Shown piece by piece: positions 40,601-63,995 of a DNA stretch of 64,000 bases. Position 1 is the stretch's first letter, and each line of letters opens with the position of its first letter. Location: positions 124,001 to 188,000 of the forward strand of contig JAENRP010000007.1 in the NCBI GenBank assembly GCA_024741835.1. Reading direction: 5' to 3'. Source of the DNA: Diplocarpon mali (lineage: Eukaryota; Ascomycota; Leotiomycetes; Helotiales; Drepanopezizaceae). The position numbers and the translations under genes were made by a program. Under the pieces are notes generated by a model, which worked only from the letters and a program-made list of their open reading frames with translations, had not been told where the DNA came from and made no database searches.

Positions 40601-41949
40601 CCAACGACGTACGATAGCATTATCTTAATAATAAAATAGTAGCTACTCCCCTTCTGGAGCGCTATGCAATAATCTAAGCTTACGCAAGATTCGTTACTAT
40701 AGCTGAATCATTAGGACTAATAGCTAAGATTACCAGCTTAATTGCTAAAAGTACTCTACTGCTTAAATTACCTATTTTTAAAGGGACTAATATATAGTAC
40801 TTTAAATTCGAATTTAATAGTTTATCTCCTCCTCCTCCTCCTTCTCTACCTTCTCCTTTCGACAATTCTATATACAAACATATAAATAAGATATCGTTAT
40901 TATCTTCGGCTGCCCTTAGCCTCCCTAAGTCTCAAAAGCTTAAAGGCGCAAAGGACTATAGCTAGTAGAGGAATAAGGTTTTAAACTTTGCAAAGTCAAA
41001 CGCCTTGACTATATATCTTTATATAAAAGCTAGAATATATGCTTTACTTAAGGTTGACTTATAAGACTGTTCTATTACAAATAAGGAAAGGGATAATTGG
41101 GTTAAATAGGAAGCTAAGGAATCTCAAATAAAGCTTACTATTATACTTAATTGCAAACCAGGCCTATTGGCTTATATAGAAGGCGATAAATCTGCCTTAA
41201 ATATATAGGAAGCTCTTTAAAAATAGTATAAAGGATCTGGAATAGTACTTGAATATAACGCTATCCAGACTTATATTACTATTAAATATAACGACTTCAA
41301 TTCACTTGAAGCTTACGTTATCGCTTTTAGGCTTTTAATTATTAAATTAGAAGCTTTCGACTCTGCCCCTCCCTTTTACTAGCACCCTATTATATTTATT
41401 ACTAGCTATTCCAATAGATGGCCTATTTAGGTAGATCGATAACGCTTTAACCTTCGCTTAGCTATAGTAGTTAAACGAAAATCAAAGATCATGCTCAAAG
41501 CTCTTATTAAAGATATTACTAATAAAGCTCAAGCCTTATAGAGTTTAAAAATGAACGGAACCGTCTTATACGGTAATAAATCGGCTAGCAAGCCGCATTC
41601 CTTTGACTATAAGAAGTCAGAAAACAAAAGAGGTTTTAAAGACTTAAAGAAGAGCACCTTTAGGAATACTACTAACTCCCTTAACTCCCCCTATCCTTAT
41701 TGTAAGCAATTAGAGCTATACTATAAGGCAAAAGATTGCTTTACAATTAATAAATCGAAAAGAGAGGCTTAGGAAAAGGATTTAAGGAAGAAGTACGTAT
41801 TCTATTACTTTAAAGGCAAGGACGATAAGTCCTTGCTATTATTACCAAAAGGTAAGAAGCCTTCTAGGAAGACTTAAAAGGAAGATAAAGAGTTAGATAA
41901 TGACCTCTTTAGGCATACTATACTATTACTAACCCTAGGGCCAATTCTC

Positions 41950-41973
41950 ACTCGCGAGCTGGGCCTAGGACTC
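41950..41973. repeat. GC-rich palindromic element, copy 1
   Basis: Imperfect inverted repeat starting ACTCGCGAG and ending AGGACTC, in AT-rich DNA. In frame with the outer gag relic, encoding TRELGLGL. Flanked by AATTC on both sides (41943-41947 as AATTC after CC, and 41974-41978). Confidence 0.75.
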
Positions 41974-42003
41974 AATTCAGACTCCTCCCTAAGGCTAATT
42001 TCC

Positions 42004-42026
42004 ACTCGCGGGCCGGGCCCGGGACT
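42004..42026. repeat. GC-rich palindromic element, copy 2
   Basis: Starts ACTCGCGGGCC and ends GGGACT; 31 bp downstream of copy 1 and in the same frame, encoding STRGPGPGL. Confidence 0.75.
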
Positions 42027-42288
42027 TAGTTCTTCTACCTCCTACTTCTTATTAAAATTGAGGAATCGTTGGCTATATAATATAAGTACTAGTAAGCACG
42101 TCTCTAATAATCTCTTTAAGTTTACTTCCTATACTACTTAAGATAATCTACCCTCTTTAAGTATAGTTAATAGATCTATTTAACCTCTTAGCGTTAGTAT
42201 TTATAAAGTCAATGCACTTAAATCAAATGGAAAGGTATATATTCTTAAGTTAATTAATACTCTTTATATACCTTAATTACCTATCTGC

Positions 42289-42488
42289 TGTGGTGCGGTC
42301 GGCTAGAGGGCCTTCATTAGGTCGCTTAGGAGGCTTGTAGAAGTAGGAGAAGATGATTGATTATATTATTATCTAGTATATATATAGTAAAGAGACTTCG
42401 GAAAGAAAAGGGAGAGTCTATAACTTAGCAGGAGTTATATAAAGGGTCTTTAGAATAAGTAAAGACTCCGCCTATTTTATATAATATA
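42289..42488 (-). repeat. LTR of copy A (3' LTR)
   Basis: Reverse complement of the LTRs at 49493-49690 and 56890-57089; about 200 bp. Outer end reads TGTGGTGCGGTCGG on the plus strand (element end CCGACCGCACCACA). The opposite end has the TG changed to TA, as expected for RIP. Confidence 0.85.
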
Positions 42489-43930
42489 CCCCTTAGTTAG
42501 GCGATACTCCTAGAATCGCTTAGCTATATAGATAAAATAAAAGAAAGAATAGCAGTTATAAGAAAAAGAGACTCTATCTTATATACTACCCCTCTAGAGG
42601 TCGTTCCTTTTAGAATAAGAAGGGTTGCTATAGGCAATAAGCGCGCTTAAGAATCTTCGCAATTCTATACTAGTACTCTATTAGGCTTTCTATAGAGTAT
42701 TTCTATTGTAAAGGTTCTCCTTTCCTTCTTTTAAAAACAACCTTCCTTTATTATTTAAAAATATTATCTTTATATTAATAATTTTTAAATATAAAAGGAA
42801 CTCCCGCTTATTATAGCCTTAGCTGCCTTTGCAAAGTAAGACCTTTAAAGTCCCTATACCCTATATTATACTAACTTTGCGCTAAGTTGCTAGCGCTCCT
42901 TTAAGAGCTGCAACCTTAGTGCAATTATCCTAGCGCCTGCTAAGCAATAAGCCGCTGCTGCTATTGCCTCTACCGCCGCCGCCGCCCCTGCTGCCGCTAC
43001 TGCTACTTAAGAGCCCTGCCCTTACTACGCGCTATATGCCTAAGCCTATAATAGAGCGCAATAACGCATACGTATATTATATTATACGCAAGAGCATTAG
43101 CAATCTCGATTATTAGTACTTTAATAGTACCTTTAGTATATATTGCATTTATTATATAATACTAAGCAATAGCTGCTAGTAGGCTAGTAGACCTCTCCTT
43201 GCCTCCTAGGAGGCTATTATATCGGCCTGCGCCCGCAGTACCTTTAAGGAGGAGGTAGCACTACTACTTAATATAGTAAAAGGTGCGCTTTAGAGCTTCT
43301 ATAGTATATTTATTAAGTCTTATTAAGTTCTAGGCTAATTTTAAAAGATAGGAGCGATTAGACCCTAGTATTAAGAGGGCCTGCTACTCTTATAAGTAGT
43401 AGTATCGCTGCCTCTTCTGCTTTTAGTATACTATTCCTATTCGCTCTTAACCCCTTTAGCTTAGACCTATTTGCCTTTATCGCTGCTGCCGCTCCTATCT
43501 CCTTTACCTCTACTATTGCAGCTACTGCTATAGTCTCTTTATTTATCTCCCTGGCCCCTACTATTGCTACGCCTATCCTTGCCGCCGCCCTTGCTGCCCT
43601 CGCTCTTATTACCCCTATTATACCCCTTGCCTTCGCCCTTACTATCGCTAGTATATTTGCTAGTAGGCCTTTAGCTAAGGGAGTACTAATAGGCCTCTTT
43701 TAAAAGGAGATCTATATAAAGCTTTTAACTATAGTATCTCAGCTCTTAGCCTTAGCTAAGAGAATTTAAAAGAGGGTTACGCCTTATAATAGCAGCTTAA
43801 GAATATTACCTATTTTATATTTTTAAAAAAGGAGAAGCTTCTATAGTACACTTTATAAAAGAAAATAAATAAATATAATTATAAGAGAGTAAGAGCTTAT
43901 AAGTATAAGTCTCTTAGTAATAAGTGACTA
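42489..43930 (-). other. Extra 3' segment of copy A between pol and LTR
   Basis: Mirror of 55447-56889 in copy B. It contains GCC/GCT runs (for example 42976-43010) and an alanine-rich frame that is open on the plus strand here (antisense to the element). See the copy B entry. Confidence 0.6.
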
Positions 43931-46900
43931 CTTACTAGTAAGTGCGAGTTATTAAACAATTATTTAAAAGCTTTAAAGGTTTAATAAATAAATAAAGCTC
44001 TTAAACTTCTAGCAGTTTAAGTTCTTAATAAGCCTATCTATATATATCTCCTTAATAAGGAGGTAGATTATTTAAAAGCTTCTTCTCTAGTACTCTTAGC
44101 AGATCTATATATTGCTAATTTCGATATATTAAAAGCTTATTTTAATCTTCTTATTCTTTATAATAATTAGCCGAATCGTCTATTAGTTATTATAATATAT
44201 ATTCCATTTAAAGAGGGAGTTTATACAAATCTCTTTAAAGAGGCGTTTTATAGCTATTATCTCCTTTGTAATAGAAACCATACTATAGAGTTCTACTTTA
44301 GTAAAAGAGAGTATAATAGTTGCTTAGCGATTCGCTTTCTAAATAATCGGTCCTTTAAATAGGAAGAAGACATATCCCTAAGAGGATCTGCAGGTCTCTT
44401 AATCATCTTTAAAAGAAGTATCTAAAGACGCAACTAATTAGTATTCCCTAGCTTTAAAGCTATAAGCAATTCTTAAGAAGCGCATATTATATAAGTATTA
44501 AAGCATTTAATCTGCGGTTAAAAGGTACTTAAAGCTTAAATTAGTTAAGAAGAAAGACAATTAAGAGGCTGCGAATATAATATCTAAGCGTATTATAATT
44601 GCTATATAAAGAATAGAGCCTCTTTTCTTTTAATACTCCTTTACCTTTTCTAAAGAAGCTTGCCTTAAGTTCTTAATAAACTCCTTCTTTAGTAGTAGAG
44701 TATTAAGCACTCTCCTTATATTAGCTCTAAACTTTTAAGCGATCTTCTTAATATAGGTATTATAAACTAAGGAGATCCTCTTTACCTTCCTATCTTAAAT
44801 AATCCTTACTCTAAGGAATTAAGAGATATCTCTTATAATAGTAAGCTTATATGCCCTCTTTAGGTCTTTAATTAGATAAGTCGCCTGATCTAAGTTAAAG
44901 GCCTTATATAATACTTAAATATCGTTAATATAAAATGCTATAAAGACTATACGATCCTTTATTATAAAAATACAAGGCTCCTCGCTTAATAGCTTGAGTT
45001 AAAGGCCCTTAAGCGTTCCTGCGAAGTTCCTATACTATAGCACTAGAGAGTCTTTCAGCTTATAAAGCGCGCGGTCCAGTTTTACTACTATACTAAGGCG
45101 CTTAAAGCCATCTAATAGGAAGCATATGACTAAAGCACTCCTTAGGTCTTTAGAAGTATTAACAAATGCGTTAATAATATTGAACTGCTTTACTTCTATA
45201 TTAAAGTATATAGCAAGCACTATTAGTACTTTAAAAGACCTTGCTATAAGCGTAACTGCATAAGTTAAGAAAATTAAAGCTTTATCTTAAAGATCCCCTT
45301 GCATAACTAGCTATAATCGGCACTTTAAAAGCTTGCTGAAGCTATTGACTTTATAAGTAAAAACCCATTTTAATAGTATCAGCGGAGGCTTTGAGTAGTC
45401 CTTTTGTATAATTCTCTAGTAACTCTGAGATTCCAAATTCCTAATCTCCTAGCGCCTTCCTTCCTTAAATCGTTTGCTAAAAGGGTGCTTCTCTAAGTCT
45501 AGCCATCCTTTCGGAGGCTTTAGTAAAAAGCCTTAATACTATAGGTAATTAGGAGACTGCGCTCTATCCTTTGCCTAACTATTAATTATAGCTTTAATAA
45601 TTATATAAATCGTCAAATAGTCCTTCTTATCCTCCTTTATTTATTCGTTTACTTAAAAGGTTAATATAAACTCTTACGTATATAAAGAGCAAGGTAAATC
45701 AATATTGCTTTAAAAGAATATATACTTTAAAGTAGTAGCATATACTTTTAAAGTCTCTTATTACTTAACGCTTAAGCGTCTTATCCTCTTTTGCCTAAGA
45801 AGAGGGAGTTCCTCTTTGCGCTTTTCTTTATAAGTCTCCTCTTCTATTTTTATTATTACTAGAGGTTCCTTTAAGAGTCTAAGTGGCTTTATCTTTTAAG
45901 CCTATAGTCTTTAAGCTAGTATTATAACTTAAGGTATTATATTATTAAGGCCTACTCCTTTTATTAAGTCGCTTCTTATAAGACTATTAAAGCTTTTCCC
46001 AGATCTTGGTAGTAGTGCTTCTAGCCTTCTATTAGAGTTTACTAAGGCCTGCCTTTATAATTAAAGACTCTATCTTAAAGCCTTTAAGCCATTTCCATTC
46101 TTATATAGAATAGTAGCTAAAGATCTACCGATTGCCTTATAAAACTTATCTTTAAAGACTCCCTTAAAGTCGTCTATAATTCCTTCTTTAATAAGGCCTT
46201 TATAAGGAATTATCACCCTTAAGCTCTAGTCGCCATTTGCCTTTTTAAAGACTAGCGAAGTAGCTTCTAATTCGCTTGCTTCTACCCTTAAGTTTCTAAG
46301 CAGGTCTTTTAAAGAATTTGGATTTAAGTTAAGGCCTTTTATATTATTAATTAAAAGCTATAGAGTAGTATTAGTCTATAATGCAGGCTCTTCTTATATA
46401 ACGGCTTCTTCTATAGCAATTGCGTTTAACCTTATAATAAGCTCCGATTCCTTGAAAATCCCTTTGAACTTAGTATCCTAAGCTCCCTTTCCCTTTTCAA
46501 TCAATTAAAAGGTCGTCTTAAGTTCCTAGCGCGATATAGGGTTTGCGCGCTTAGCTTTTAAACTATAAAAGAGAGACTTATCAAATTCGATATTATAAGT
46601 TATTATTACTCGCCAAAGTATAAGAACTTAGATTCTATAAATATTAGAGGTAATATATCTAATTAAGTAACTTAAGTACCCTTATAGTTCAATTTTAAAG
46701 GTTCAGCGGTCCCTCCTTGCCTCCCTCTCCTTAATTAAAGGGTATACGCAAGCACTATACGTATAAACGCAACTCCAGTTAAGCTTTAAGCTTGCTATTA
46801 TCTATTTAATAAGCAGCGGCTTATAGAATCGAAAATACTACTTAAACTAATTATAAAGAGCCTTACTTAATAAGATCATCTTCTTCCTAGTAAGTAAGGA

Positions 46901-49483
46901 GATATTATAAAGGTATATAGTAATCTTTATAACCTCTAGCTAAAGGCTTGCTAAAAGCCTGGCGTAGATCCTCATTTTAATAAAGCGTTCAATTAACTCC
47001 CTTCTTACTCGCTCTACGCCTTTATTAAGTTAGTATATATAAGCAGGAGTAAGCTTTAAATCAATTCCCTCCTCTTTTACCTATCTCTAGTACTTTATAA
47101 GAGAATCTTCCCTTAAGGAGATTACTAAAGTATTATTATCTTACCTAATTTTACAAATAGAAAGCCTATATTAGCGTTTCACCTATACTTCAAAGGCTTA
47201 AAGGACTTCTATAATCATATCTCTGCCCTTTGATCTTAGTAAGAATATCTAAAGTATACTATTATACTTATCCTTAATTAAAAGAACCTATAAGCAACTA
47301 TTATATAAATTGTCTAAAAAGTCAAAGAGATCCTAGGAGATTCTAAAGAAGGGCCTTAAAGATCGGTTTTTAAAGGTAGTATAAAAAATAACTTGCTTAG
47401 CAGATACTACTATATATATAAGGCACTCCAGCCTTTATATTCCCTTAATCTTTACTCTCCTAGCGCACTTGACTAGCGCTTAAAGAGCCTTCGCGCCTAA
47501 GTAGCTAGCGCAAAGGTGCCAAGTATACGCATTATTATCCCGTACCTTAGTAGGTGCATAGCTAAACTAGAACCTATTATAAAGTGTTATCTTAGCTATA
47601 GGGAACGCTATTAAGGCAAAGAAGTTATATTAAAGCATATTTAAAAGATCTAAATAGTTAATAAGCTTATATTTAAAGAAAATAAGATTATAGCAACGCT
47701 CTAACTAAGCTTACTTTATAGAATCTCTAATGCTCCTAAAGCGCAAAGTAAGGTCTACTCTAAAGTACCAAAAGCCCTTATCTACAAAGAGCCTTTCTAA
47801 GATAATATTAGTAGTAAACTCCTTTATAATAGCAATATTGCGAAACGTTATCCCTATAGGAGAGCCGTTACGCTATAGAAGAGAGTCTACTATATACTTA
47901 TTACCTCTTTTAATAATTAAGAGCCTTAAGGTACCTGCTTTAATATATTATTATAAGTCGCCAGAAGGCTTAAAGGTACCTATAATAAGTAAATCCTTTA
48001 AATTAATAATATAAGTAGCTGCACAATTATTAAAGAGCGTACTTAAGAAGAGCAGGTAGCGTTCTAGCTTAAAGAGGTAGTAAATATTAAACGATTCTTC
48101 AAAAGTATTAAAGGCAAAGGGATCTATTATTATAAAGACTAGTAAGTTCTCCCTTTTGCCTAAACCATCCTCTTTAAAGGCTAAAGCCTTTCCTTTAAAT
48201 TTGTCGATTGCTATTACTACAATATTATTCTCTTTAAGCTATACTTAGAGACCTTTGAACTAGTCTTTTGCGTTTAACGCCTTTCGTATTTGTAGGACCT
48301 CCTTTCGCAAAGGGAGAACCTTTATATTTTCCTTATGCCTATCTATAATATATAATAGTTTCCGATAGTCCTAAGGCTTTTAATAGTGATTTTTAAAGCC
48401 TTTATAAGGGCACTTAGGCCTGATCTCCCTTTTAAAGCTTATAAAGCGATTTCGGGAGCTACTCGCTAGAGCCTACAAAGGGGTTTCAGCATCTAAGAGA
48501 GACTCTTAAGTAGTAAAAACTGCTAGCCCTTTATTATCGATTGCTCTATTAGATTCAATGCCCGCTAAGGCGCGGCTCAGCTGCATTAGGTTATGCTTAC
48601 ATAGGGTTCTTATCTACTTATTAATAATAATTTCCTCCTTTAAGCGAGTCGCCTAACTCGGATTAATCTTTATTATAACTAAGTCTAAAAAGTTAGTAAC
48701 TCCTAGTCTCCCTTTAATCTTAAGGAGATTGTATTATTCTATTAAGCGGTATACCTCCTACTACTCCCAGATCTACTATTAAGTATTAGTTCTCTTAGTT
48801 TTGCCTTAGCGTAATACGTCGCAGTATTAAAGCCTTATCTAAGACTAAATAGCCTTGTTAAAAGGCGCAATATCACGCTTTAAAATAGATACTAGGCCTT
48901 AGAGTAAGAGTTGCTAGTTCACTAAATTAGCATATAGGTTATTAGTAGTAGTTCCACTTATAGGAGTATCTCTATTAGGTATTAAGAAGGAGAGCTTCTT
49001 AGCTTGGATTTATACTTAAGCTATTGCGGAAGCTAAAAGCGTTCTATCAATAGTCTTAAAGACCTATTCTAAGAGTAGTTTATAGTATTTGCATTAGATC
49101 TTCTAAGTCTCCTTATATATATAGTACTCCTTTATTAGGATTTTATATTTATCCTTAATATCCTTATAAGAAGCCTATAGAAGAGGAGCCTTTAATAAGT
49201 CTCCTAAGGGAAAGTAGGCATAAATCTATTTAAATAGAGTCGCTATATACTCTTTATATAACCTCGCGTATACTATACAAAGGTTAGCCGTTTCTAATTC
49301 CTTAAGCTCTTATATAAAGGGAGCTTAAGGCTTAGTCTTTATAATTAACTTAAATAGGAGTCTCAGATTAGCAAAAATAGTAATATTATAAAGCTTAGCA
49401 AAGAATATATATTTACTAAACCACTTTACCTAAAAGGCAGAAGTATTAAAGCAAGGCTTAAAGATACTCAAAGAGTTAGACAT
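43931..49483 (-). pseudogene. Degraded gag-pol of Copia copy A
   Basis: Order from 49483 downward is gag, protease, integrase, reverse transcriptase (about 44.6-45.4 kb) and RNase H (about 43.95-44.6 kb), deduced by mirror image from copy B. Gag starts MSNSLSIFKPCFNTSAF. Expected Trp and Gln positions are frequently stops, the RIP signature. No functional protein can be made. Confidence 0.75.
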
Positions 49484-49492
49484 ATTAAATAG

Positions 49493-49690
49493 TGTCGTGC
49501 AGAATGGGCGGAGTCTCCACTTATTCTGGAGACCCTCTATATGACTCTTGCTAAGTCATAGACTCTCCCTTTTCTTTCCAAAGTCTCTTTACTATATATA
49601 TACTAAAGAATAATATAATTAATTATCTTCATCTATATTAGCAAGCCTCTTAAGCGACCTAATAAAGGCCCTTTAGCCGACCGCATTATA
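49493..49690 (+). repeat. 5' LTR of copy B
   Basis: Begins TGTCGTGCAGAATGGGCGGA and ends CCGACCGCATTATA. Differs from the 3' LTR mainly by C/T and G/A changes. Forms most of the 393-bp spacer of the inverted pair. Confidence 0.88.
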
Positions 49691-49892
49691 GTTATAAGCC
49701 TTATAAGCATTTTAATATGCTTTCTCTTCGTATACAACTGGCTAAAGGGCCCTTTAAGCTCTTAACCGACTTTTTAAATATTTATAACAACTCAAAGGAC
49801 CTTCATTTTCAATTAACAAATCTCCAATTTCCAATCGAACCTTATTTGCAAACTTCATTTATATACTTAACCTTTTTCACTAGACTCTATTT

Positions 49893-52800
49893 AATATATC
49901 TAACTCTTTAAGCATCTCCGAGCCTCGCTTCAATACCTCTGCCTCTTAGGTAAAGTAGTTTAGTAAATATATATTCTTCGCTAAGCTCTATAATATTACT
50001 ATTTTTGCCGATCCGAGACTCCTATTCAAGTCAATTATAAAGACCGAGCCTTAAGCTCCCTTTATATAGGAGCTTAAGGAACTGGAAACGGCTAACCTTT
50101 GCATAATATACGCAAGGTTATATAAAGAGTATATAGCGACTCTATCTGAATAGATTTACGCTTACTTTCCCTTAGGAGATCTATTAAAGGCTCCTCTTTT
50201 ATAGGCTTCTTATAAAGATATTAAAGATAAGTATAAAATCCTAATAAAGGAGCACTATATGCGTAAGGAAACTTAAAAGACCTAATATAAATATTATAAA
50301 CTATTACTTAAATAGGTCTTTAAGACTATCGATAGAATGCTCCTAGCTTTTGCAATAGCTTAAGTATAAATCCAAGCTGAGAAGCTCTCCTCTTTAATAC
50401 TTGATAAAGATACTCCTATAAGTAGAACTACTACTAATAACCTATATTCTATTTTAGTAAATTAGCAACTCTTACTCTAAGGCCTAATATCTATTTTAAA
50501 GTGTGATATTACGCCTTCTAATAAGGCTATTCAGTCTTAGATAAGGCTCTAGTATCGCGATATACTACGCTAAGGCAAGACTAGGAGAACTAATACTTAG
50601 CAGTAGATTCGGGAGTAGCAGGAGGCGTATTGCCTAGTAGAATAATATAGTCTTCCTAAGATTAAAGGGAGATTAGGAGTTACTGACTTTTTAGACTTAG
50701 TTATAGTAAAGATTAATCTAAGTTAGGCGACTCGCTTAAAGGAGGAAATTATCACTAATAAGCAGATAGGAACCTTATATAAGCACAACTTAATATAGCT
50801 AAGCTGCGCCTTAGTAGGCATTGAATCTAATAAAGCGATTGATAATAAAGGGTTAGCAGTTTTTACTACTTAAGAGTCTCTCTTAAATGCCGAAACCCCT
50901 TCGCAGGCTTTAGCGAGTAGCTCCCGAAATCGCTTTATAAGCTTTAGAAGGGAGATTAGGCCTAAGTGCCTTTATAAAGGCTTTAAAAATCACTATTAGA
51001 AGCCCTAGGACTATCGGAAACTATTATATACTATAGACAGGCGCAAGGAAAATATAAAGGTTCTCCCCTTGCAAGAGGAGGTCTTACGAATACAAAAGGC
51101 GTTAAACGCAGGAGACTAGTTCAAGGGTCTTTGAGCATAGCTTAAGGAGAATGATATTACAATAATAGCGATTGATAAATTCAAGGGAAAGGCTTTAGCC
51201 TTTAGGAAGGACGGTTTAGGCAATAAAAGGGAGAACTTACTAGTCTTTATAATAATAGATCCCTTTGCCTTCGACGCTTTTAAAGAATCGTTTAACGTCT
51301 ACTACCTTTTTAAGCTAAAACGCCACCTACTCTCCTTAAGTACGCTCTTTAATAATTGCGTAGCTACTTATATCATTAATTTAAAGGATTTACTTATTAT
51401 AGGTACCTTTAAGCCTTTTAGCGACTTATAGTAATATATGGAAGCAGGTACCTTAAGACTCTTAATCATTAGAAGAGGTAATAGATATATAGCGGACTCT
51501 CTTCTATAGCGTAACGGCTCTCCTATAGGGATAACGCTTTGTAATATTACTATTATAAAGGAGTTTACTACTAATATTATCTTAAAGAGGCTCCTTGCAG
51601 ATAAGGGTTTTTAGTACTTTAGAGTAGACCTCACTTTGCGCTTTAAGAGTATTAGAGATTCTGTAAAGCGAGCTTAATTAAAGCGTTACTATAATCTTAT
51701 TTTCTTTAAATATAAGTCTATTAACTATTTAGATCTTTTAAATATGCTTTAATATAACTTCTCTGCTTTAATAGCGTTCTCTATAGCTAAGATAACGCTT
51801 TATAATAGGTTTTAGTCTAGCTATACACCTATTAGAGTGCGGGATAATAATACGTATACTTAGTACCTTTGCGCTAGCTACTTAGGCGCAGAGGCTCTTT
51901 AAGCGCTAATCAAGTGCGCTAAGGGAGTGAAGATTAAGGGAATATAAAGGCTAGAATGCCTTATATACGTAGTAGCGTCTGCTAAGCAAGTTATTTCTTA
52001 TGCTACCTTTGAGAACCGATCTCTAAAGCCCTTCTTTAGGATCTCCTAGGATCTCTTTGACTTTTTAGATAACTTATATAATAGTTACTTATAAGTTCTT
52101 TTAATTAAGGATAAGTATAGTAGTATACTTTAAACGTTCCTATTAAGATCGAAGGGCAAAGACGTAGTTATAGAGGTCCTTTAAGCCTTTAAAGTATAAG
52201 TAAAACGCTAATATAGGCTTTTAATTTGCAAGATTAGGCAAGATAATAATACTTTAGTAATCTCCTTAAGGGAAGACTCTCTTATAGAGTATTAGAGATA
52301 GGTAAAAGAGGAGGGAATCGATTTAGAGCTTACTCTTACCTATATATACTAACCGAATAAAGGCGTAGAGCAAGTAGGAAGGGAGTTGATTAAACGCTTT
52401 ATTAAAATGAGAATCTACGCTAGGCTTTTAGCAAGCCTTTGGCCAGAGGTTATAAAGGCTACTATATACCTTTATAATATCTCCTTACTTACTAGGAAGA
52501 AGATGATCTTATTAAGCAAGGCTCTTTATAATTAGTTTAAATAGTATTTTCGATTCTATAAGCCGCTACTTATTAAGTAGATAATAGCGAGCTTAAAGCC
52601 CGATTAAAGTCGCGTTTATACGTATAATACTTGCGTATACCCTTTAATTAAAGAGAAGGAGGTAGGAAAGGACCGCTGAACCTTTAAAATTAAACTATAA
52701 AGGTACTTAAGTTACTTAATTAGATATATTACCTTTAATATTTATAGAATCTAGGTTCTTATACTCTAGTGAGTAATAACGACTTATAATATCGAATTCG

Positions 52801-55430
52801 ATAAGTCTCTCTTCTATAGTCCAAAAGCTAAGCGCGCAAACCCTATATTGCGCTAGGAATTTGAGATAACCCTTTAATTGATTAAAGAGGGAGAGGGAGC
52901 TTAAGACGCTAAGTTTAAAGGCATTTTCAAAGAATCAAAGCTTATCGCAAAGCCGAACGCAATCGCCGCAGAAGAAGCCGCTATATAGGAAGAGCTTATA
53001 TTATAGACTGACGCTACTCTATAACCTTTAACTAATAATATAAAAGGCCTTAACTTAAATCTAAATTCTTTAAGAGACCTGCTTAGAAACTTAAGGGTAA
53101 AAGTAAGCGAACTAAAAGCCACTTTGCTAATCTTTAAGAAGGCAAATGGCGACTAGAGCTTAGGGGTAATGATTCCTTATAAAGGCCCTACTAAAGAAGG
53201 AACTATAAACAACTTTAAAGGAGTCTTTAAAGATAAGTTCTATAAGGCGATCGGCAGATCTTTAGCTGCTATTCTATATAGGAATAGAAATAGCTTAAGG
53301 GCTCTAAGACAGAGTCTTCGGTTATAAAGGCAGGCCCTAGTAAACTCTAGTAAAAGGCTAAAGGTACTGCCGCCAAGATCTAGGAGGAGCTCTAATAGTC
53401 TTATAAGAAGCGACCTAGTAAAAGGAGTAGGCCCTAATAATATAATACCTTAAGTTATAATACTAGCTTAAAGACTATAGGCTTAAGAGATAGAGCTACT
53501 TAGACTCCTAAAGGAACTTCTAATAATAATAAAAATAGAAGAAGAGACTTATAGAGAAAAGCGCAAAGAGGAACTCCCTCTTCTTAAGCAAAAGAGGATA
53601 AGACGCTTAAGCGTTAAGCAATAGGAGACTTCAAAAGTATATACTACTGCTTTAGAGTATATACTCTCTTAAAGCAATATTGATTTACCTTACTCCTTAT
53701 ATACGTAGGAGTTTATATCGACCTTTTAAGCAAACGAATAGATAAGGGAGAATAGGAAGGACTATTTGACGATTTATATAGTTATTAAAGCTGCAGTTGA
53801 TAGTCGGGCAAAGGATAGAGCGCAGTCTTTTAACCGCCTATAGCACTAAGGCTCTTTGCCGAAGCCTTCGAAAGGATAGCTAGACCTAAAGAAGCACCCT
53901 TTTAATAAACGATTTAAAGAAGGAGGGCGCTAGGAGATTAGGAATTTAAAATCTCAAAGTTGCTAAAGAATTGTATAAAAGGACTACTCAAAGCCCTTGC
54001 TAATACTATTAAAATAGGTTTTTACCTATAAGGTTAATAGCTTTAGTAAGCTTTTAAAGTACCGATTATAGCTAGTTATATAAGGGGATCTTTAAGATAA
54101 AGCTTTAATTTTCTCAACCTATATAGCTACGCTTATAGCAAGGTCTTTTAAAGTACTAATAGCGCTTGCCGCGTACTTCGATATAGAAGTAAAGCAGTTT
54201 AATATTATTAACGCATTCATTAACGCTCTTAAAGACCTAAGGAGTGCTCTAGTCATATACTTCCTATTAGATGGCTTTAAGCGCCTTAGTATAGTAGTAG
54301 AACTGGACCGCGCGCTTTATAGGCTGAAAGACTCTCTAATGCTATAGTATAAGAACTTCGCAAAAACGCTTAAAGGCCTTTAACTCAAGCTACTAGGCGA
54401 AGAGCCTTGTATTTTCATAATAAAGGATCGCATAGTCTTTATAGCGTTTTATATCGATAATATTTAAGTGTTATATAAGGCCTTTAACCTAGATCGGGCG
54501 ACTCGTCTGATTGAAGACCTAAAGAGGGCATATAAGCTTATTATTATAAGAGATATCTCTTAGTTCCTTAAAGTAAGGATTATTCGGAATAGGAAGGCAA
54601 AGAGGATCTCCTTAGTTTATAATACCTATATTAAGAAGATCGCTTAAAAGTTTAGAGCTGATATAAGGAGAGTGCCTAGTACTCTACTATTAAAGAAGGA
54701 GTTTGTTAAGAACTTAAGGCAAGCTTCCTTAAAAAAGGTAAAGGAGTATTAAAAGAAAATAGGCTTTATTCTTTATATAGCAATTATAATATGCTTAGAT
54801 ATTATATTTATAGCCTTCTAATTATCTTTCTTCTTAACTAATCTAAGCTTTAAGTACCTCTTAGCCGCAGACTAGACGCTTTAATACCTATATAGTATAT
54901 GCTTCTTAAGAATTATCTATAGCTTTAAGGCTAGGGAATACTAATTGGTCGCTTCTTTAAATGCTTCTTTTAAAGATAACTAAGAGACCTGCAGATCCTC
55001 TTAAGGATACGTCTTCTTCCTATTTAAAGGACCGATTATTTAAAAAGTAAATCGCTAAGCGACTATTACGCTCTCCTTTATTAAAGTAGAACTCTATAGT
55101 ATAGTTTCTATTGCAAAGGAGATAATGGCTATAAAACGCCTTTTTAAGGAGATTCGCATAGACTCCCTCTTTAAATAGAATATATATTGCAATAACTAAT
55201 AGACGATTTAACTAATTATTATAAAGAATAAGAAGATTAAGATAAGCCTCTAATATATTAAAATTAGTAATATATAGATCCGCTAGGAGTACTAGAGAGG
55301 AAGCTTCTAAATAATCTACCTCTCTACTAAGGAGATGCACGCAAATAGGCTTATTAAGAACCTAGACCGCTAGAAGTTTAAAAGCTTCGTTTGTTTATTA
55401 AACCTCTAAAGCTTTTAAATAATCGTTTAG
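49893..55430 (+). pseudogene. Degraded gag-pol of Copia copy B
   Basis: Gag begins MSNSLSISEPRFNTSAS at about 49893. A zinc-knuckle-like remnant CLYKGFKNHY is at about 50970. Protease-like NNCVATYIINLKDLLIIGTF is at about 51350. An integrase-like stretch follows (ASLWPEVIKATIYLYNISLL at about 52435). Reverse transcriptase shows FDIEVKQFNIINAFINALKD and ELDRALYRLKDS near 54180-54330, and IAFYIDNI near 54440. RNase H shows FIKVELYSIVSIAKEIMAIK near 55080 and the conserved end STKEMHANRLIKNL near 55325. This is the Ty1/Copia order (integrase before RT). Many TAG/TAA stops replace Trp and Gln. Inactive. Confidence 0.8.
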
Positions 55431-55446
55431 CAACTCGCACTTACTA

Positions 55447-56889
55447 GTAAGTAGTCACTTATTACTAAGAGACTTATACTTATAAGCTCCTACTCTCTTA
55501 TAGTCACGTTTATTTATTTTCTCTTATAAAGCGTATTATAGAAGCTTTTCCTTTTTTAAAAATATAGAATAGGTAATATTCCTAAGCTGCTATTATAAGG
55601 CGCGACCCTCTTTTAGATTCTCTTAGCTAAGGCCAGGAGCTAAGACGCTATAGCTAAGAGCTCTGTATAGATCTCCTCTTAAAAGAGGCCTACTAGTACT
55701 CCCTTAGCTAAAGGCCTGCTAGCAAATACACTAGTAATAATAAGGGCAAAGGCAAAGGGTACGGCAAGGGCAATAGGAGCAAGGGCGGCAGAGGCAGCAG
55801 CAAGGACAGGCGCGGTAATAGTAGGGGCTAAGGAGATAAATAGGGAGACTATAGCAGCAGCTGCGATAGCAGAGGTAAAGGGGATAGGAGTAGCAGCAGC
55901 GATAAAGGCGAATAGGTCTAAGCTAAAGGGACTAGGAGCGAACGGGAATGGTACGCTAGGAGCAGGAGAGGTAGCAATACTACTACTCGCAAGAGTAGCA
56001 GGCCCTCTTAGCACTAGGGTTCGATCGCTCCTATCTTTTAAAATCAGCCTAAAACTTAATAAGACTTAATAAACGTATTACAAAAGCTTTAAAGCGCACC
56101 CTTTACTATATTAAGTAGTAGTACTACCTCCTCCTTAAAGGCACCGCAGGCGCAGGCCGATATAATAGCCTCTTAAGAGGCGAGAAGAGGTCTACTAGCC
56201 TACTAGCAGCTATTGCTTAGCACTATATAATAAACGTAACGCGCACTAAAGGTACTATTAAAGTATTAATAATTGAAATTGCTAGTACTCTTATATGCGA
56301 TATAATATACGTATACGTTATTGCGCTCTATTATAGGCTTAGGCATACGGCACGCAATAAGAGCGGGGCTCTTAGGTAGCAGTGGCAGTAGCAGGGGCGG
56401 CGGCGGCAGTAGGGGCGATAGCAGCGGCGGCTTATTGCCTAGCAGGCGCTAGGACGATCGCGCTAGGGTTGCAGCTTCTAAAGGAGCGCTAGCAACCTAG
56501 CGTAAAGTTAGTATAACGCAGGGTATAGGGACTCTAAGGGTCTTACTTTGCAAGGGCGGCTAAGGCTATAATAAGCGGGAGTTCCTTTTATATTTAAAAA
56601 TTATTAATATAAAGATAATATTTTTAAATAATAAAGGAAGGTTGTTTTTATTAAGAAGGAGAACCTCTACGATAGAAATACTCTATAGGAAGCCTAATGG
56701 AGTACTAGTATAGAATCGCGAAGATTCCTAAGCGCGCTTATTACTTATGGCGACCCTTCTTATTCTAGAAGGAACAACCTCTAAAGGGGCGGCATATAAG
56801 ATAAAGCCTCTTTTTCTTACAATTGCTATTCTTTCTTTTATTTTATCTATATAGCTAAGCGATTCTAAGAGTATCGCTTAATTAAGGGG
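55447..56889 (+). other. Extra segment between RNase H and 3' LTR of copy B
   Basis: About 1.44 kb downstream of the end of pol, unusually long for a Copia 3' untranslated region and conserved in copy A. It has GC-richer trinucleotide runs (GGC/GCA, for example 56397-56430). On the minus strand an alanine-rich hydrophobic frame is open at 55679-56014 and upstream to about 56064, and the same frame is open in copy A, but without a clear ATG. Function unknown. Confidence 0.55.
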
Positions 56890-57089
56890 TGTATTATATA
56901 GAATAGGCGGAGTCTCCACTTATTTTAAAGACCCTTTATATGACTCCTGCTAAGTCATAGACTCTCCCTTTTCTTTCCGAAGTCTCTTTACCATATATAT
57001 ACTAAAGAATAATATAATCAATTATCTTTATCTATATTAGCGAGCCTCTTAAGCGACCTAATAAAGGCCCTCCAGCCGACCGCACCATA
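56890..57089 (+). repeat. 3' LTR of copy B
   Basis: Begins TGTATTATATAGAATAGGCG and ends CCGACCGCACCATA. Preceded by the polypurine-like AAGGGG. Same family as 42289-42488 and 49493-49690. Confidence 0.88.
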
Positions 57090-57990
57090 TAATAGTAATC
57101 CAATTATAGTAATAATAAAATAGGAATACCTTTTTAAAATACTTTTAAACAATTCTTATAAGACTGGTAGTTTTATAGCCTTTTATAACAATTATATAGC
57201 CGTTTATAATAAGAATACCTTAGAAAATAAGACTTAAATCTCTGATCTTATCTTTTCAATCTTTACTTTAAAGCAACTTCTAATACCTTAATAGATTAAC
57301 GCAAGTAGAACTACTATACCTTTTAAGGTAGCTTTTTATTTTAAGAACTGCAGTAACCTCTTTAAAGCTATTATTAATCGATGCTCTTAAATAGATCTAT
57401 TAGTTACGATCGAAGTATAAGAGTTGTTTCTTTTTAATAAAGATAAATTGAAAATCCACTTTGTAAAATATAATCAAAAGCTCTTTAATACCCTTATTAA
57501 GGCTTAGATAAACGTTATAAATACTAAGTCGCTTCTTTATAGACTTAAGTCTTAAGGATAACGCAATAAAGTAAATGCTATCCGAGAGCCTAATGCACTA
57601 ATTGATAAAGGCATTATTATAAGAAAATTCGGAAAAGAGACAAATTGAGATGCTAATATAGTATTAGACCCTAATTTAGAAACTAATCTCCTATTTTTAC
57701 CCTTAAGCTTAAAAACGCTAAGACTGACTCGCGAGCCTGGCCTACGAGTAAGGTTGGACTCGGCTAGCTTAAGCCTATAAGATAGTTCGGATAAACCTTA
57801 GTCACTAAATCTAAGGGTACTAATAGAAGATCCTTTAAGAGAGGTCCCTAAAGCTAAGAAATCGCCGAGAAATAAGAACTAACGCAAGAGAAGAAGACTC
57901 CAAAGTGATAATAGAACTGACAATTGAGTCGACTCGAGCTTAGAGAATCGAGTCTACCTCCCCTTTTGAAAACCATTTAAAGAGATTGCG
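57090..57990 (+). pseudogene. Degraded reading frame of unknown family, upstream of the long ORF
   Basis: A frame with RIP-type stops reads NKDKLKIHFVKYNQKLFNTL, INVINTKSLLYRL, NAIREPNALIDKGIIIRKFG and LRLTREPGLRVRLDSASLSL, then a basic end (SPRNKN, RKRRRLQSDNRT). The REPGLRV part is encoded by the palindrome at 57727. Its left end is cut by copy B at 57089. I do not recognise the family; it may be a first ORF of the element that carries the following long ORF. Boundaries are approximate. Confidence 0.4.
57727..57749. repeat. GC-rich palindromic element, copy 3
   Basis: Starts ACTCGCGAGCC, ends GGCCTACGAGT. In frame with the degraded ORF at 57.1-58.0 kb, encoding TREPGLRV. Confidence 0.8.
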
Positions 57991-59366
57991 AATTAGAAGT
58001 TGAATTTTTTTAAGATTATCTACTTTCTATAAACCTGCACCTCTTTATTCTCTATTTATTATTCTATTCTATATATATTCTTTACTCTACTTTATTCTTT
58101 ATATAACCTATCCCTTGATTATTTCCTTTATATGCAACCTTCTAACGCTTACCTTTGATAATTATCATTTACTAATTATAGGTCCTTATATGCGTCACAC
58201 CCCACTTTTGTTTCTACTTTCGGCCTCTTTATGCCCACTTTTTCTCTATGCGCTAATGCGATTCCTATCTCTATAAATAAACCTCTTCTTGCATTACGAT
58301 TTTACTTTTTTTTACCTTCTTTACAACCCTACTAAGACCTAGTACTAGTACTAATAATACTACTAGTATTATCTTTCTATTATTAATCTTTTCTAATTAA
58401 GCTTCCAATCTTAATAAATTCTTTTTAAAGATTTATTCTTTAATAAGGAACCCTATCACTTCTATCAAATAATTCATTATGGCCCCCCTTAGTATAAGTA
58501 AAAAGGTCATACCTAAGAAGAATATATCACTTATTACCTTAGGTAGCAAGTCTTCGGCAATATCTAGCAATAAACTAATATTAAAAGGTGGATTCTTATA
58601 GGATAGCAAGACTCTTCGGTCATTAGAAGATGTTATAAGCACCTATAAAACGTTAAGCGAGATAGAATAATAAGTATTCCTAAATTCGTCTATTAACATA
58701 CTCAATTGAAAAATATCTACTATTAAGGAAGGGTTCCTAAACTTTAATGATTTTCTTAAGGGAAAGCTTAAGGTCAAAGGAATTAATTATAAAAAGTTTT
58801 TATAAGAGTATTAAGGTTACTTTATATTAATGGATTTATTTTAAAGAAACTGAGACAAAAAGAATAAGGGTATGAAAAGATTACTACAGTTTATAAGTAG
58901 CACTTATAGTACCCTCTTCTGAACCTACTTTATAACTAATATTATAGCTAACAACGCCCTGCGAGGACTAGGCAAAATTTTTAAGATATATTAACCAGTG
59001 GCAAAGGCTATATAAGTATTAAATCATTTCACTATTTAAGAAGGTATAAAGAAACTCTAAGGTAATAATATAAGAGGTAGAAAATTTGTTAGGTTCTTAA
59101 GTACTATTATGCACTCTACTATTCAGACTATAAAAGACGATCCTGCGTAGTATAACAGCCTAGCCCTTCCTAATTAGATAATTTTAAACACCTTTAGCCT
59201 ATAATAGTTATAATATAGTCTACTTATTATAAAAGAAAAGATAATCTATCTCGCTAAGTATACTATAAACTATTTTAATAATAAAATAGAGAGATAGGAA
59301 TTTGTAATTCCTACTGCTTAGAAAATGCTACCACCCTTAGCAGAACTAACTAATAAGGAAAATTTG

Positions 59367-59389
59367 ACTCGTAGGCCTGGCCTACGAGT
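59367..59389. repeat. GC-rich palindromic element, copy 4 (perfect)
   Basis: Two exact 11-bp arms, ACTCGTAGGCC and its reverse complement, around one central T. In frame with the long ORF, encoding TRRPGLRV. This is the best-preserved copy. Confidence 0.9.
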
Positions 59390-59552
59390 GGAATTAGTAT
59401 ATAATAGAGAAGTCCTTAAGCATAAGGTACTTGTAATACTAGAAATACAAACTGCTAACTATTATAACTCCGAATCTTTAGACTTAGATATATTTAAATC
59501 ACCGTCCTTAGAAATGCCCTAAATACCTTGAATACTAGTAGCAAGTAAATCG

Positions 59553-59575
59553 ACCCGCAGGCCCGGCCTATAGGT
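59553..59575. repeat. GC-rich palindromic element, copy 5
   Basis: Starts ACCCGCAGGCC, ends GGCCTATAGGT. In frame with the long ORF, encoding TRRPGL, stop, V (the stop is RIP-type). Confidence 0.8.
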
Positions 59576-60782
59576 CAATATATGTAATGATATAAACTTA
59601 AAAGAAGATTTACCAAAGGAAGAGAATAGCGCTATTACTAATGCGCTAGAAATTTTTAATAATACTAAGAAAGACATCTCTAATATCGTTCAATCCTTCC
59701 CTAAGGACTTGCGAAAGTTTATTCTCAAATTCTATAAGTCGATAATAAAGCGTTTAAGAAAGGAAGGTCAAGGAGAAGTTTTATTAGCATAAGAAGGAAT
59801 AGCAAGAGCTGTTAAACAAATTATAAAACTGCACTAAGACGAATTCTCTACAAATAATATTATATAGTTCTTTATTAACTATAAGAAATTGAACGGTAAC
59901 TACTATATTCTTAAAGAAAAGTCAAAAGATAGTATAACTATTATCTCTATAGAATGCTATCAAGTTCCCCTTAATATTAAGATAATACTATAGCATAGCA
60001 ATAGATTTAAGATTGTGATAATACTAGAAATGAAAACAAGACTTTCTAAATTTGTAATAGGAATATTTAAGGACTTTAATTTTGATAAATTCTACGCCCT
60101 TTATAAACGATAATACGCGTAGTACTATAGGCTAGTAATAATAGGCCTTAATAATAAAGATATATTATCTAATATCTATAAATTTTATACTACTCTTAAC
60201 CTAAAGTTGTTTTTACTATACCTAGGGAATTATGCAATTGTGGCCACTAGTAATAGAATAGCAAGCTAGGTTAAGAAAGACGTATTATTAGGATTTGCTA
60301 AGTTTAAGGTAGCGCTTAAAGCTTTGAAATTATTCTATAATATCACTTAGACTCCTACCTAGTACAATGCTATATTAACTAATAATAAATTAATATCATT
60401 CTAAAGCAAAGGTTTTTTAAATATGCCTAAGCTATTCAACTATGCTTTCCTAAGTGCTATATATATATATAGTTATAGTTCTTGCGCAAAGACTTCATTT
60501 TTAATATTAGTATAAGAAGAACTGGAAATGTATAAATATCATTTCCGAGTCTCTAATAAGAAGCCAGCTCCTCTATCTGCGTTCCTTTATAATATAACTC
60601 ATAGTTTGATATAATAGACTCTAAGAATATACTATAGATTATATCTAAGCGCTCTACTTACTTATTATAATTCTTTATATAAGCTAATAATATACCCCAA
60701 GCTTATACAGTTTATTAAGGTTGACTACCATTTAAAAATCGTTGTAATAAGAATTAATACTAATATAAGATTTGTGAGATTG

Positions 60783-60805
60783 ACTCCTAGGCCTAGCTCG
60801 CAGGT
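60783..60805. repeat. GC-rich palindromic element, copy 6
   Basis: Starts ACTCCTAGGCC, ends TCGCAGGT; imperfect arms. In frame with the long ORF, encoding TPRPSSQV. Confidence 0.7.
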
Positions 60806-61604
60806 CAGTCCTCCTAATAATAGAACCATTAACTACTATATCATTCCAATAGCCAAATAGTCAACCAGCCAATTTGCTATATAAGAGAAGTCTTATAAAT
60901 TATCAATCCTTATACTAACCAAACCTAAGAATGCTTAATAGATTTTAATAAACTTAATACAAAGCGCTACTTAACGAAAAGAATTGAATACTAAATAAAG
61001 GACGTTCTTAAAAGAATATATTTCTAATAAGACCGTCCTATTCTTAGTATTTATAAGATAAGGAACATTTGTTAACCTAGATTTAAAATGGGAACCTGGC
61101 AAAGGCAGCTTCCTCGCAGTTAGCAATAACTATACTAAAGTTATCGGGAATAAAGCCCTTGAGAATAAAATAGACCTAAAGGACTTTTTAATCAAAGCTA
61201 TTAATATAAAGCGACCTTAGACTATAAGATAGAGTATTATAGGCAAATTATCTGCAAAGTTCTATATAATACTTAAAATAATAAAAGGTAGTCTATTATT
61301 AAAGGCGCTTATAAGAAGAAGACTATAGAACGATCCATTAGTTATAATAATAGTAAAAGACTTATTCTCAAAGGATATTATATAGTTAATAACTTATTTA
61401 AAGAAATATAAGTAAGAACTATTTAAAGATTTTACAAACACTTAGAAAATGATTTAATAGTTAAAGCTATAGCTATATAGAGACAAGTCTTAGGCCAAGA
61501 CTAAGGGCACTAATAATAGTATCAAGGCCGATAATATAATCGATAAAGTCATTCTTCTCAAGAAATATAGCATTAAGAAACCTTAAGCAAAGACCCTAGA
61601 AATG

Positions 61605-61628
61605 ACTCCCAGGCCCAGCCCGCGACTC
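61605..61628. repeat. GC-rich palindromic element, copy 7
   Basis: Starts ACTCCCAGGCC, ends CGCGACTC. In frame with the long ORF, encoding TPRPSPRL. Confidence 0.7.
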
Positions 61629-62030
61629 GATCTAAAGAAGGGCAAGGATAAGGAACTCGTATTTATAAAATCCCCTACTGTATCCCCTTTAGTAGCAGGT
61701 GACTTTCTAAAGGATGATAATAATAATAAAAACAACGATAATAATAATGCTATAATATAAGTCTCTCTCCCTATCGGCAGAAGCCATTATACTATACTAG
61801 CATTCGCAAAGAGTATAGAAGCTCCTGCCATACCGAGACCTATCTCGTCGGATACTAATAGCAATGCTATAAGAAGAAGTGGTCGTTCGGCGAAGAGAGT
61901 ATTATCTAATAATAGTTCTCCTTAACCCTTAAAGAGAACTAAGGAAAATTGACATCTAGGTTAGTACTATTTTTAATTGTTTTTAGCGACTCTATAACTT
62001 ATTTATTTATTTTGCTAATTTCGTTTTCTA

Positions 62031-62053
62031 ACTCCTAGGCCTGGCCTATAGGT
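62031..62053. repeat. GC-rich palindromic element, copy 8
   Basis: Starts ACTCCTAGGCC, ends GGCCTATAGGT. Same phase as copies 4-7, encoding TPRPGL, stop, V, just before the assembly gap. Confidence 0.75.
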
Positions 62054-62099: not shown

Positions 62100-62639
62100 A
62101 AAAACTTTCTTCTTTTTTTTCTTTTTACCCTTTAATAAGGATATAGCCCTAGTTTAGGCCTTTTAATATATTAGTTTTCTCGCACTTAAGGTTTGCTAGT
62201 AATTAATATGCTATTGCCTTAACTTATATTATTTTATATTCTTTGCTAATAGTAATAAAGGCTACTACTTTTATTATTTAGGATATATATAAAGACCTAA
62301 GATAAATAGGTCTTATAATATATATTATATAATCGGCGCAGGATAGTAGGAGGATAAAAAGGGCCATCTTCTATATATAAAGACAGCGCGTGTCGCCATA
62401 GTACTAAATATACCCTATACTTAGGACTTATTCCTAATATCTTATCTAAGAGAGCCCGCTTGTAGTGCTTCCTCCTCTTGTTTTTAGGTCTTCCCTTAGG
62501 CCTATTCTTGTATTGTCCCCCCTTTGTTTTATACTAAAACGGGGAAATCTCCTAATAGAAGGTCAGATTTATTATATAAGGTTATATATAATAATAAGGT
62601 CGAGATTACAATTAGACATTTGCTAGAGTTTGCAAATCT
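62100..62639. other. AT-rich transposon relic without readable frame
   Basis: Low-GC, TA-rich sequence between the gap and the reverse transcriptase relic, probably the upstream (integrase to RT) part of the same Copia element, but too decayed for me to read. Confidence 0.35.
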
Positions 62640-63930
62640 GCGGTTTAAAAGATCGCAATTGCGCTTATAGCGCTATATAACTTTAAGCTAGATCAGTTCA
62701 ATATTAAGACAGCTTTCCTTAATTTAGAAGCTGACTTTAATATCTATATCAAGTTACCTCTTAGATATACTTAAGATAAGGTTATTCTTTTACCTTAAGA
62801 CTACTATCTTAAGCTTCTTAAGGCTTTATATAGCTTAAAGCAATCTCTACGACTATAGTAAGAAAAGCTACGGTCTGAGCTATAAAAGCTCGATTTTCAA
62901 CCTTTTAATACTAATAATTGCGTATATATTAACCGCGCCTCTTAGATTCTTATTATTACCTATATCGACAACTTCCTTATAGTAGTAAAGAAGGGTAATA
63001 TATATAACAAATTTAAGAGAGATCTTCGCAACCTCTTTAAGATTATAAGTAGCGAACCGGCTAATTACTTCTTAAGAATATATATAGTTAGAGATCGATA
63101 AAATAGAACGATCTCGCTTTATTAAGACGCCTATATTAATAAGGTTCTTAAACGTTTTCATATGACTAACTGCAAGAGCGTACTAACGCCTTTTACTAAT
63201 AGCTATAAAGTTCATATGGTCAAATTTAAAGGCTAAGCCACTCTATAGGAAGTAAAGCTATACTAGGAGATTTGTGGTTCTCTATAGTACCTTGCGCACT
63301 ATATGCGTTAGGATATACTATACTACTGCTCTATTCTTAGCAAATTCCTTACTAACCCTTTATAATAATATATAGTAGCTTTAAAACGAGTTTTATAATA
63401 CTTGCAAAGAACGCGATTCTATTATACTACCTTTAGAAGTAAAACAACTGACCTAGAGCTTTAGAAATTGCATAGCTACTGCGATTCTAATTAGGCAAGT
63501 AATAGAGGAACTAGAGCCTCCTATTCTAAGGCTATCTTCTTCCTTAATAATAGCGTAATTACTGCCTCCTTTAAGCGATAGACTATTATCGCTCTCTTAT
63601 CTATAGAAGCAGAGTATATCGCTATATGCAAATTCGCATAAAAGGCCTCTTAAATACGCTAAGTACTTAAGGAAATAGGCTACGCTAGCGATAATGCTAT
63701 TAAAGTCGAGATGATTTATAATAACTAAGGAGCCCTTTATCTTACCGAAAATCCCGAATATCATTAGAGAACGAAGCATATTAATATCAAGTTCTATTAT
63801 ATTCGGTAAGAACTTTGGAAAGGCCATTTGGACCTCTAGTATACAAATACTAAAGACAACGCCGCCGATAGACTAACTAAAAGCTTAAATAGCTCTAACT
63901 ACGCCGCCTTTATCAAATTGTTAAATATAA
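62640..63930 (+). pseudogene. Copia-type reverse transcriptase and RNase H relic
   Basis: Readable RT pieces are QFNIKTAFLNLEADFNIYIK, LLKALYSLKQS, NNCVYINRASQILIITYIDN followed by FLIVVK (the YVDD box altered to YIDN), and HMTNCKSVLTPF. RNase H pieces are GSLQYLAHYMR, SIEAEYIAI, RTKHINIKFYYI, and the conserved end NAADRLTKSL. All are on the plus strand with RIP-type stops. It differs in sequence from copies A and B, so it is a different Copia lineage, possibly the right part of the outer element that starts at 40253. Confidence 0.75.
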
Positions 63931-63937
63931 AGGTTCT

Positions 63938-63995
63938 GCACCTCGATTAAGGGGTGATTTTTTTTTTGCACCTCTATTATAGGGTGATTTTTTTT
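63938..63995. repeat. Tandem duplication at the polypurine tract
   Basis: Two copies of a unit of 28-30 bp beginning GCACCTC and containing a GGGGTGATTTTTTTT-like core (63938-63967 and 63968-63995), with the start of a third copy at the window edge. It directly follows the end of RNase H, where the polypurine tract and 3' LTR are expected. Confidence 0.6.

Follow-up and report, generated by a model that had tools for sequence, protein, structure and literature searches.

Rickettsia palindromic elements are palindromic repeats that lie in frame in unrelated coding sequences and are read as peptide inserts (PMC10969869). We analysed a 64,000-nucleotide stretch of the Diplocarpon mali genome (contig JAENRP010000007.1, positions 124,001 to 188,000; hereafter the window), in which an earlier inspection of the sequence, the original prediction, had placed eight palindromes of about 23 bp inside transposon reading frames. 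The Diplocarpon palindrome resembles the Rickettsia elements in that it was met in frame within unrelated genes, and it is comparable in effect. However, the Rickettsia elements are ~150 bp long, form ten families and occupy bacterial cellular genes, whereas the sequence described here is 23 bp long, nuclear and fungal, and was met here only in transposons, their untranslated parts included. PARCEL repeats are tandem coding palindromes found in bacteria and eukaryotic microbes, in some taxa tied to mobile elements (PMC2996958), and the Diplocarpon palindrome likewise forms tandem repeats that code. In contrast to the 25-residue amphipathic motif of PARCEL, which occurs in open reading frames (ORFs) without assigned function, the peptide here is an 8-residue, Pro/Gly-containing sequence resembling TRGPGPRV, which recurs with a 15-residue period in arrays and lies in retroelement linkers.

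Short palindromes that are thought to be mobile are also known from fungal mitochondria (GC42 of yeast, and those of Fusarium), the yeast ones being GC-rich; GC42 shows a putative AG target duplication and also positions without it, and the repeats in Fusarium are A/T tracts (PMC4478555, PMC7218506). Unlike these mitochondrial GC clusters, our copies lie in Ty1 and Ty3 elements and in DNA altered by repeat-induced point mutation (RIP), on contigs of up to 560 kb, and no empty site was found. Sirevirus motifs are repeated palindromes with a CGG-CCG core that are common to divergent copia elements (PMC2829016). They have other sequences and are found mainly in the long terminal repeats (LTRs) of copia elements from plants, clustered ahead of the TATA box, whereas many of ours lie in coding linkers, including those of Ty3 elements. 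No published description of the Diplocarpon palindrome appeared among the listings of open-access literature searches.

Our best reading is that the palindrome is a short selfish sequence, nuclear, 23 bp long and, in the sample examined here, confined to transposons. We assign a probability of about 0.55 to a history in which a palindrome of fixed length entered several Diplocarpon transposon families at about 20 positions and was then multiplied by these families and mutated by RIP. In the window, all eight palindromes were present at their expected coordinates when the letters were read directly (Table 1), and the copy at 59367 is indeed perfect, with two 11-bp arms and one centre base. The pattern ACTCSYRGGCCNGGCCYRSGAGT matched six of the eight at up to 3 mismatches, compared to 0 expected from 100 dinucleotide shuffles; the copies at 59553 and 60783 are more mutated and fall outside these matches. 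A window scan at up to 5 mismatches, which also missed the copy at 60783, detected no palindrome in the gene-rich part (1-39.6 kb). One further palindrome, at site E, begins 22 bp past the window end (contig C7:188022), beyond the 3' end of a copia pol.

The genome-wide search for the consensus that the original prediction had suggested was run at up to 3 mismatches from ACTCGYAGGCCNGGCCTRCGAGT and returned 1971 sites, compared to 0 for the reversed control pattern. The least mutated form of the palindrome is ACTCGCGGGCCNGGCCCGCGAGT; 217 sites lie within 2 mismatches of it, the best one listed having 1 mismatch. A degenerate form had no exact match in genome_contigs (257 billion bases, from which records near this genome are possibly excluded) and a single match in IMG/VR, where the contig is GC-rich and phage-like. 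Miniature inverted-repeat transposable elements (MITEs) are short inverted repeats of high copy number without a gene of their own. The Diplocarpon palindrome shares these features but differs in having no interior: in the genome, the degenerate form matched exactly at 260 places when the centre was 1 base and at 0 when it was 2-32 bases, longer interiors not being searched. The possibility that it represents the fused ends of a larger element with terminal inverted repeats was rejected on the same count, over the same range.

From the fetched loci we collected 146 distinct sequences, a sample weighted toward good matches. All were palindromes except one (L076, scored by a loose finder); 140 of the 145 were placed by their flanks (likeness of at least 0.70) and five by eye (three at site E and two at site F), and together they occupy about 20 fixed positions, spread over copia, several gypsy families and a protein family of Diplocarpon as well as DNA that is not translated. 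Ten full-palindrome loci, taken irrespective of family, yielded 13 palindromes, of which 12 were placed by score and one by eye, and none lay at a new position. Candidate insertions in host DNA were rejected, as the ten isolated half-arm matches inspected, in DNA with a GC content of 0.43-0.65, were not palindromes; L076, which the loose finder had scored, is one of these ten.

The hosts are copia gag, the copia linker between integrase (IN) and reverse transcriptase (RT), the Ty3 linker between RNaseH and IN in two families, a family represented in the window by a long ORF, and untranslated DNA. Coding copies with recognisable domains all lie in linkers, namely gag-protease (PR), IN-RT and RNaseH-IN. 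In copia gag (site A), there are two copies per element, 48 to 66 bp apart, and in copia pol (site K) three copies at 45 bp spacing lie between an SH3-like domain (residues 314-383) and RVT_2 (residues 546-785), at one locus only. Site B lies in the RNaseH-integrase linker of Ty3 pol, in phase 0. We scored 40 of the 180 candidates of this family, and the 38 copies with both flanks had inserts of 23 bp (16 copies), 68 bp (14), 113 bp (5), and 158, 77 and 131 bp (one each). Together with L012:1501, the family-B array in the Ty3 pol linker represents a natural linker-length polymorphism of mostly 23 + 45n bp, with n from 0 to 3. Site H lies in the RNaseH-integrase linker of a second Ty3 pol, in phase +1, with the motif at codon 500 of a single frame that also contains RNaseH (313-438) and an integrase zinc domain (575-631); 40 of 255 candidates were scored, and the inserts of 39 copies measured 23 bp in 36, 24 bp in one and 26 bp in two. 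Sites J (phase 0) and G (phase +1) share one frame in L031 with no significant Pfam family, and both are less firm. The long-ORF family carries D1-D4 and the paralogous sites I and C, of which I matches D3 and C matches D4. Site E lies in untranslated DNA beyond copia pol, possibly within an LTR, and adjoins a poly-T of variable length. Sites F1 and F2 are palindromes in an element of unsettled identity and coding state, and the gag N-terminus of P0020 has a site seen as peptide only, in phase 0. A peptide search for further hosts returned four proteins, all of them Diplocarpon coronariae entries found before. Since the long-ORF proteins, copia gag and Ty3 pol differ from one another, the palindrome is, as had been proposed, present in unrelated transposons and not confined to one family by descent.

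The original prediction also held that all copies share one reading phase. In the window, this is true of seven palindromes, but not of the one at 62031. Counting arrays once, I with D3 once and C with D4 once, nine of 11 events across the genome are in phase 0 (A, K, B, the P0020 gag N-terminus, D1, D2, D3, D4 and J) and two in phase +1 (H, which is firm, and G, which is uncertain); two of the 11 are weakly placed. At a chance of 1/3, at least nine phase-0 events have P = 0.0014 if the events are independent, and this P is too small otherwise. One shared phase is therefore replaced by an excess of phase 0, with H in phase +1 and E and D5 untranslated. The only explanation offered for this excess is that a Pro/Gly linker is tolerated.

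The palindrome is conserved as DNA rather than as peptide. In 15 phase-0 copies, transversions relative to the least mutated form were observed at 4/90 synonymous third positions (centre excluded) and at 12/240 first and second positions, and in six copies that are noncoding, unsettled or in phase +1 the corresponding counts were 3/36 and 4/96. Transitions of the RIP type were commoner at the third positions of the phase-0 copies (18/90, compared to 22/240 at first and second positions). The centre base is free (C7 A6 T5 G3) and, RIP-type changes aside, this sole unpaired base is the sole free synonymous site. Both orientations occur, and an asymmetric subtype gives TP...RV at B, K and D3 and TR...GV at A and J in the same phase. 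Conservation as DNA follows from these three observations, i.e., equally fixed synonymous positions, freedom of only the unpaired centre, and the use of both orientations.

A shared preference is also apparent in the flanks, with the consensus TTYN-[23]-NRAWTY around the 23-mer. With orientation optimised and tandem copies kept separate, all 21 sites have Y at -1, and all 21 have R at +25. The flank score was 246, whereas 40 single-base shuffles averaged 133 and reached 149 at most. The preference is seen at coding and noncoding sites alike.

We propose that the palindrome would have entered the transposon families of a Diplocarpon lineage in either orientation, at the roughly twenty positions observed. 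Transposition of the host elements would then have multiplied it roughly a hundredfold, with RIP mutating the copies afterwards. Copies in domains would have been purged by selection, while those in linkers and untranslated DNA may have survived, aided by the fact that none of the palindrome's six frames contains a stop. Since no copy in the sample came from a host gene or from DNA between host genes, spread might have taken place among retroelement RNAs or cDNAs, by hairpin-assisted template jumps at AT-rich microhomology and not by a DNA transposase. A bolder version of this proposal seems possible yet doubtful to us, namely a geneless 23-bp nuclear parasite of retrotransposons only, which jumps between unrelated retroelements during reverse transcription in shared particles and persists because it is read as a harmless linker whatever its phase or orientation.

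Several observations weigh against an invading palindrome. We infer that it is mobile, and only infer it, because neither an empty site nor a significant target duplication was found. In a first test on single representatives, 16/1500 permutations reached the observed likeness of a site's own two flanks; in the full test, 1311/20000 did. This likeness hardly exceeds that between the flanks of different sites, and the duplication expected of a MITE is not significant. Direct repeats at A1, E, I, K1 and K3 were rejected as target duplications, as the shared flank preference explains them equally well. Empty sites, which a MITE would leave, were absent from all scored genome copies (0/38 in family B and 0/39 in family H), and the linkers of relatives in other fungi are too variable to reveal an insertion junction. 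Each position appears fixed within its family, and no movement was observed. Thus, of the fungal miniature element in coding linkers put forward by the original prediction, the presence in linkers of several unrelated families stands and movement was not seen. The RNA- or cDNA-level step is weakened further, as the long-ORF element is not established as a retroelement. The evidence for conservation as DNA also has its limits: the sample is biased to good matches, and most copies were found by a DNA pattern that a differently coded peptide could escape. The D copies are an exception, having been retrieved through their place in the protein, although the motif was then located by a looser pattern. 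Finally, selection on a binding site would fit the half-site transversions, 114/123 of which fall at positions 5 and 9, although the finder is lenient at these positions and L076 contributes to the remainder.

Such selection is the basis of a different account, in which the palindrome is a functional cis-element, either the DNA site of a dimeric protein or a hairpin in the RNA that serves packaging or expression, and that was acquired by several retroelement families. Fungal Zn2Cys6 sites have the shape CGG-N7-CCG, and the palindrome core contains CGG-N7-CCG. The variation is two-fold symmetric, at positions 5/19 and 9/15, with few transversions elsewhere; the palindrome also occurs in untranslated DNA and in several copies per element, no family-B copy lacks it (0/38), and palindromic CGG-CCG repeats in copia elements provide a precedent (PMC2829016). 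However, many positions are in coding linkers, at family-specific places and not in a promoter region, and the position-5 transversion, present in 90/292 half-sites, often disrupts the palindrome there. A host factor would further be expected to have sites in host DNA, and no such copy was met, although only ten GC-rich loci were inspected. We regard the cis-element as the main rival, yet as an unlikely explanation; a selfish palindrome and a selected binding site may also both hold.

Selection might instead act on the protein, the peptide being a linker or polyprotein processing site that was copied between transposons. Its location at gag-PR, IN-RT and RNaseH-IN junctions would fit, as would the phase 0 excess and the family-B insert lengths, which differ by multiples of 3 in 38/38 copies. 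Some relatives carry similar peptides, TREPGARV and TREPGPRV occurring in two of them. In an alignment of the family-B linker in 24 proteins (four from Diplocarpon coronariae and 20 others), the linker is present in 18/20 of the others (P0022 ends before it and P0039 has a gap), and 16/18 have no such peptide, including P0018 of Drepanopeziza brunnea; P0007 reads TREPGARV and P0009 a weaker TPEPSPQV. Among 69 non-Diplocarpon proteins (77 in total), P0007, P0009 and P0019 match at least 7/8 peptide positions, and these matches are suggestive only, with permuted peptide patterns giving a mean of 0.38 matches and up to 6. A peptide module is made improbable by synonymous positions that are no freer than others, by the different phase of family H, by the untranslated copies at E and D5, and by the asymmetric subtype, which gives different peptides in its two orientations. 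In the alternative named by the original prediction, related transposons share a linker module that was duplicated. Taken as vertical descent only, it accounts for what is seen within families, where the examined copies hold the palindrome at the same place, tandem copies number one to four and, in a paralogous protein, I and C are the counterparts of D3 and D4. It does not extend to hosts as different as the long-ORF proteins, copia gag and Ty3 pol, to the use of both orientations, to untranslated copies or to fixed synonymous sites. Most family-B relatives lack the peptide, and paralogues at 26% protein identity share nearly the same 23 bases in different subtypes. Vertical descent alone is therefore very improbable.

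Table 1 Palindromes and host frames in the window.
Feature	Position	Strand	Description
Palindrome A1	41950..41972	+	Phase 0; copia gag, between zinc-knuckle and protease regions (both placed by eye)
Palindrome A2	42004..42026	+	Phase 0; same copia gag as A1, 54 bp after A1
Palindrome C	57727..57749	+	Phase 0; paralogue of long ORF, position matches D4 (homology via related locus L018)
Palindrome D1	59367..59389	+	Phase 0; long ORF; perfect 11-bp arms
Palindrome D2	59553..59575	+	Phase 0; long ORF, 62 codons after D1
Palindrome D3	60783..60805	+	Phase 0; long ORF; TPGPGSRV in three intact relatives
Palindrome D4	61605..61627	+	Phase 0; long ORF, near C-terminal end
Palindrome D5	62031..62053	+	Outside long ORF, 79 bp downstream of stop at 61950
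Ty1/copia gag frame, RIP-mutated	40690..42290	+	Retrotran_gag_2, E 9e-6, 25.7 bits (below the Pfam cut-off of 27)
3' part of long-ORF paralogue, RIP-mutated	57110..58000	+	Homology to long ORF
Long ORF, RIP-mutated	58479..61952	+	Intact relatives P0001-P0004 (Diplocarpon coronariae); no Pfam family above cut-off
3' end of copia pol, RIP-mutated	62590..63950	+	Borders by eye, likeness to L026 frame

Around the palindromes, the RIP indices are 1.39-1.68 for TA/AT and 0.54-0.68 for (CA+TG)/(AC+GT), compared to 0.77 and 1.18 in the gene-rich part; the GC content of the window is 43.9%, close to the 43.96% published for Diplocarpon coronariae (PMC7864672). As the palindrome-bearing DNA is marked by RIP, the host frames are pseudogenes and not open. 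Stops in the gag frame number 17 when it is read in the phase of the motif, 36 and 76 in the two remaining forward phases and 29 in antisense phase 0, and the corresponding numbers for the long ORF are 59, 134 and 154, and 66. In the 57 kb frame, phase 0 contains 16 stops whichever strand is read. Since antisense phase 0 is also stop-poor, the strand was decided by homology rather than by stop counts, and the direction of the 57 kb frame by its homology to the long ORF. As the related locus L018 shows, these two frames are paralogous (26% identity over 514 aa, E 2e-56). Thus, where three transposon frames with at least two unrelated proteins had been predicted, the window holds two unrelated hosts and not three.

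A search with X at the stops identified four intact relatives of the long frame, all from Diplocarpon coronariae. P0001 ends at the position equivalent to the long-ORF stop, and its four ORF sites read TRGPGPRV, TRGPGPRV, TPGPGSRV and TPGPGPRL. In three of the four relatives the peptide occurs at every one of these sites, slightly altered in places (SRGPGPRV, TPGPGPQL), and P0003 lacks the site-3 stretch. The predicted peptide, Thr-Arg-Arg-Pro-Gly-Leu-Arg-Val, is thus partly a product of RIP. Among 622 genomic candidates of the long-ORF family, 40 were scored, and all 40 are nearly full-length with 31 to 61 stops each. The predicted structure of P0001 was uninformative (mean pLDDT 29.8). The long ORF represents a 1157-aa family whose relatives were found only in D. 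coronariae and have no Pfam match above cut-off, and in L018 the diverged paralogue lies upstream of it. Elsewhere in the window, 42290-57090 is a ~14.8-kb element with inverted repeats starting TGGTGCGGTCGGCT at its ends (38 bp compared, 2 differences) and internal parts near 43.4-43.7 and 55.7-56.0 kb that are mutually inverted by eye; no palindrome was found in it at up to 5 mismatches. Close to the edge of the RIP-mutated block, the GC-rich part contains a long open frame rich in Ser/Thr/Pro (37576-39150).

Palindromes that code for protein are known from bacteria and, if our reading is true, the Diplocarpon palindrome is a nuclear fungal counterpart that resides inside retrotransposons. 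It would then be a hyperparasite below the usual size of a transposon and would represent one route by which polyprotein linkers grow. As a natural marker of exchange between copia and gypsy elements, the palindrome would also offer a test of sequence exchange in shared particles.

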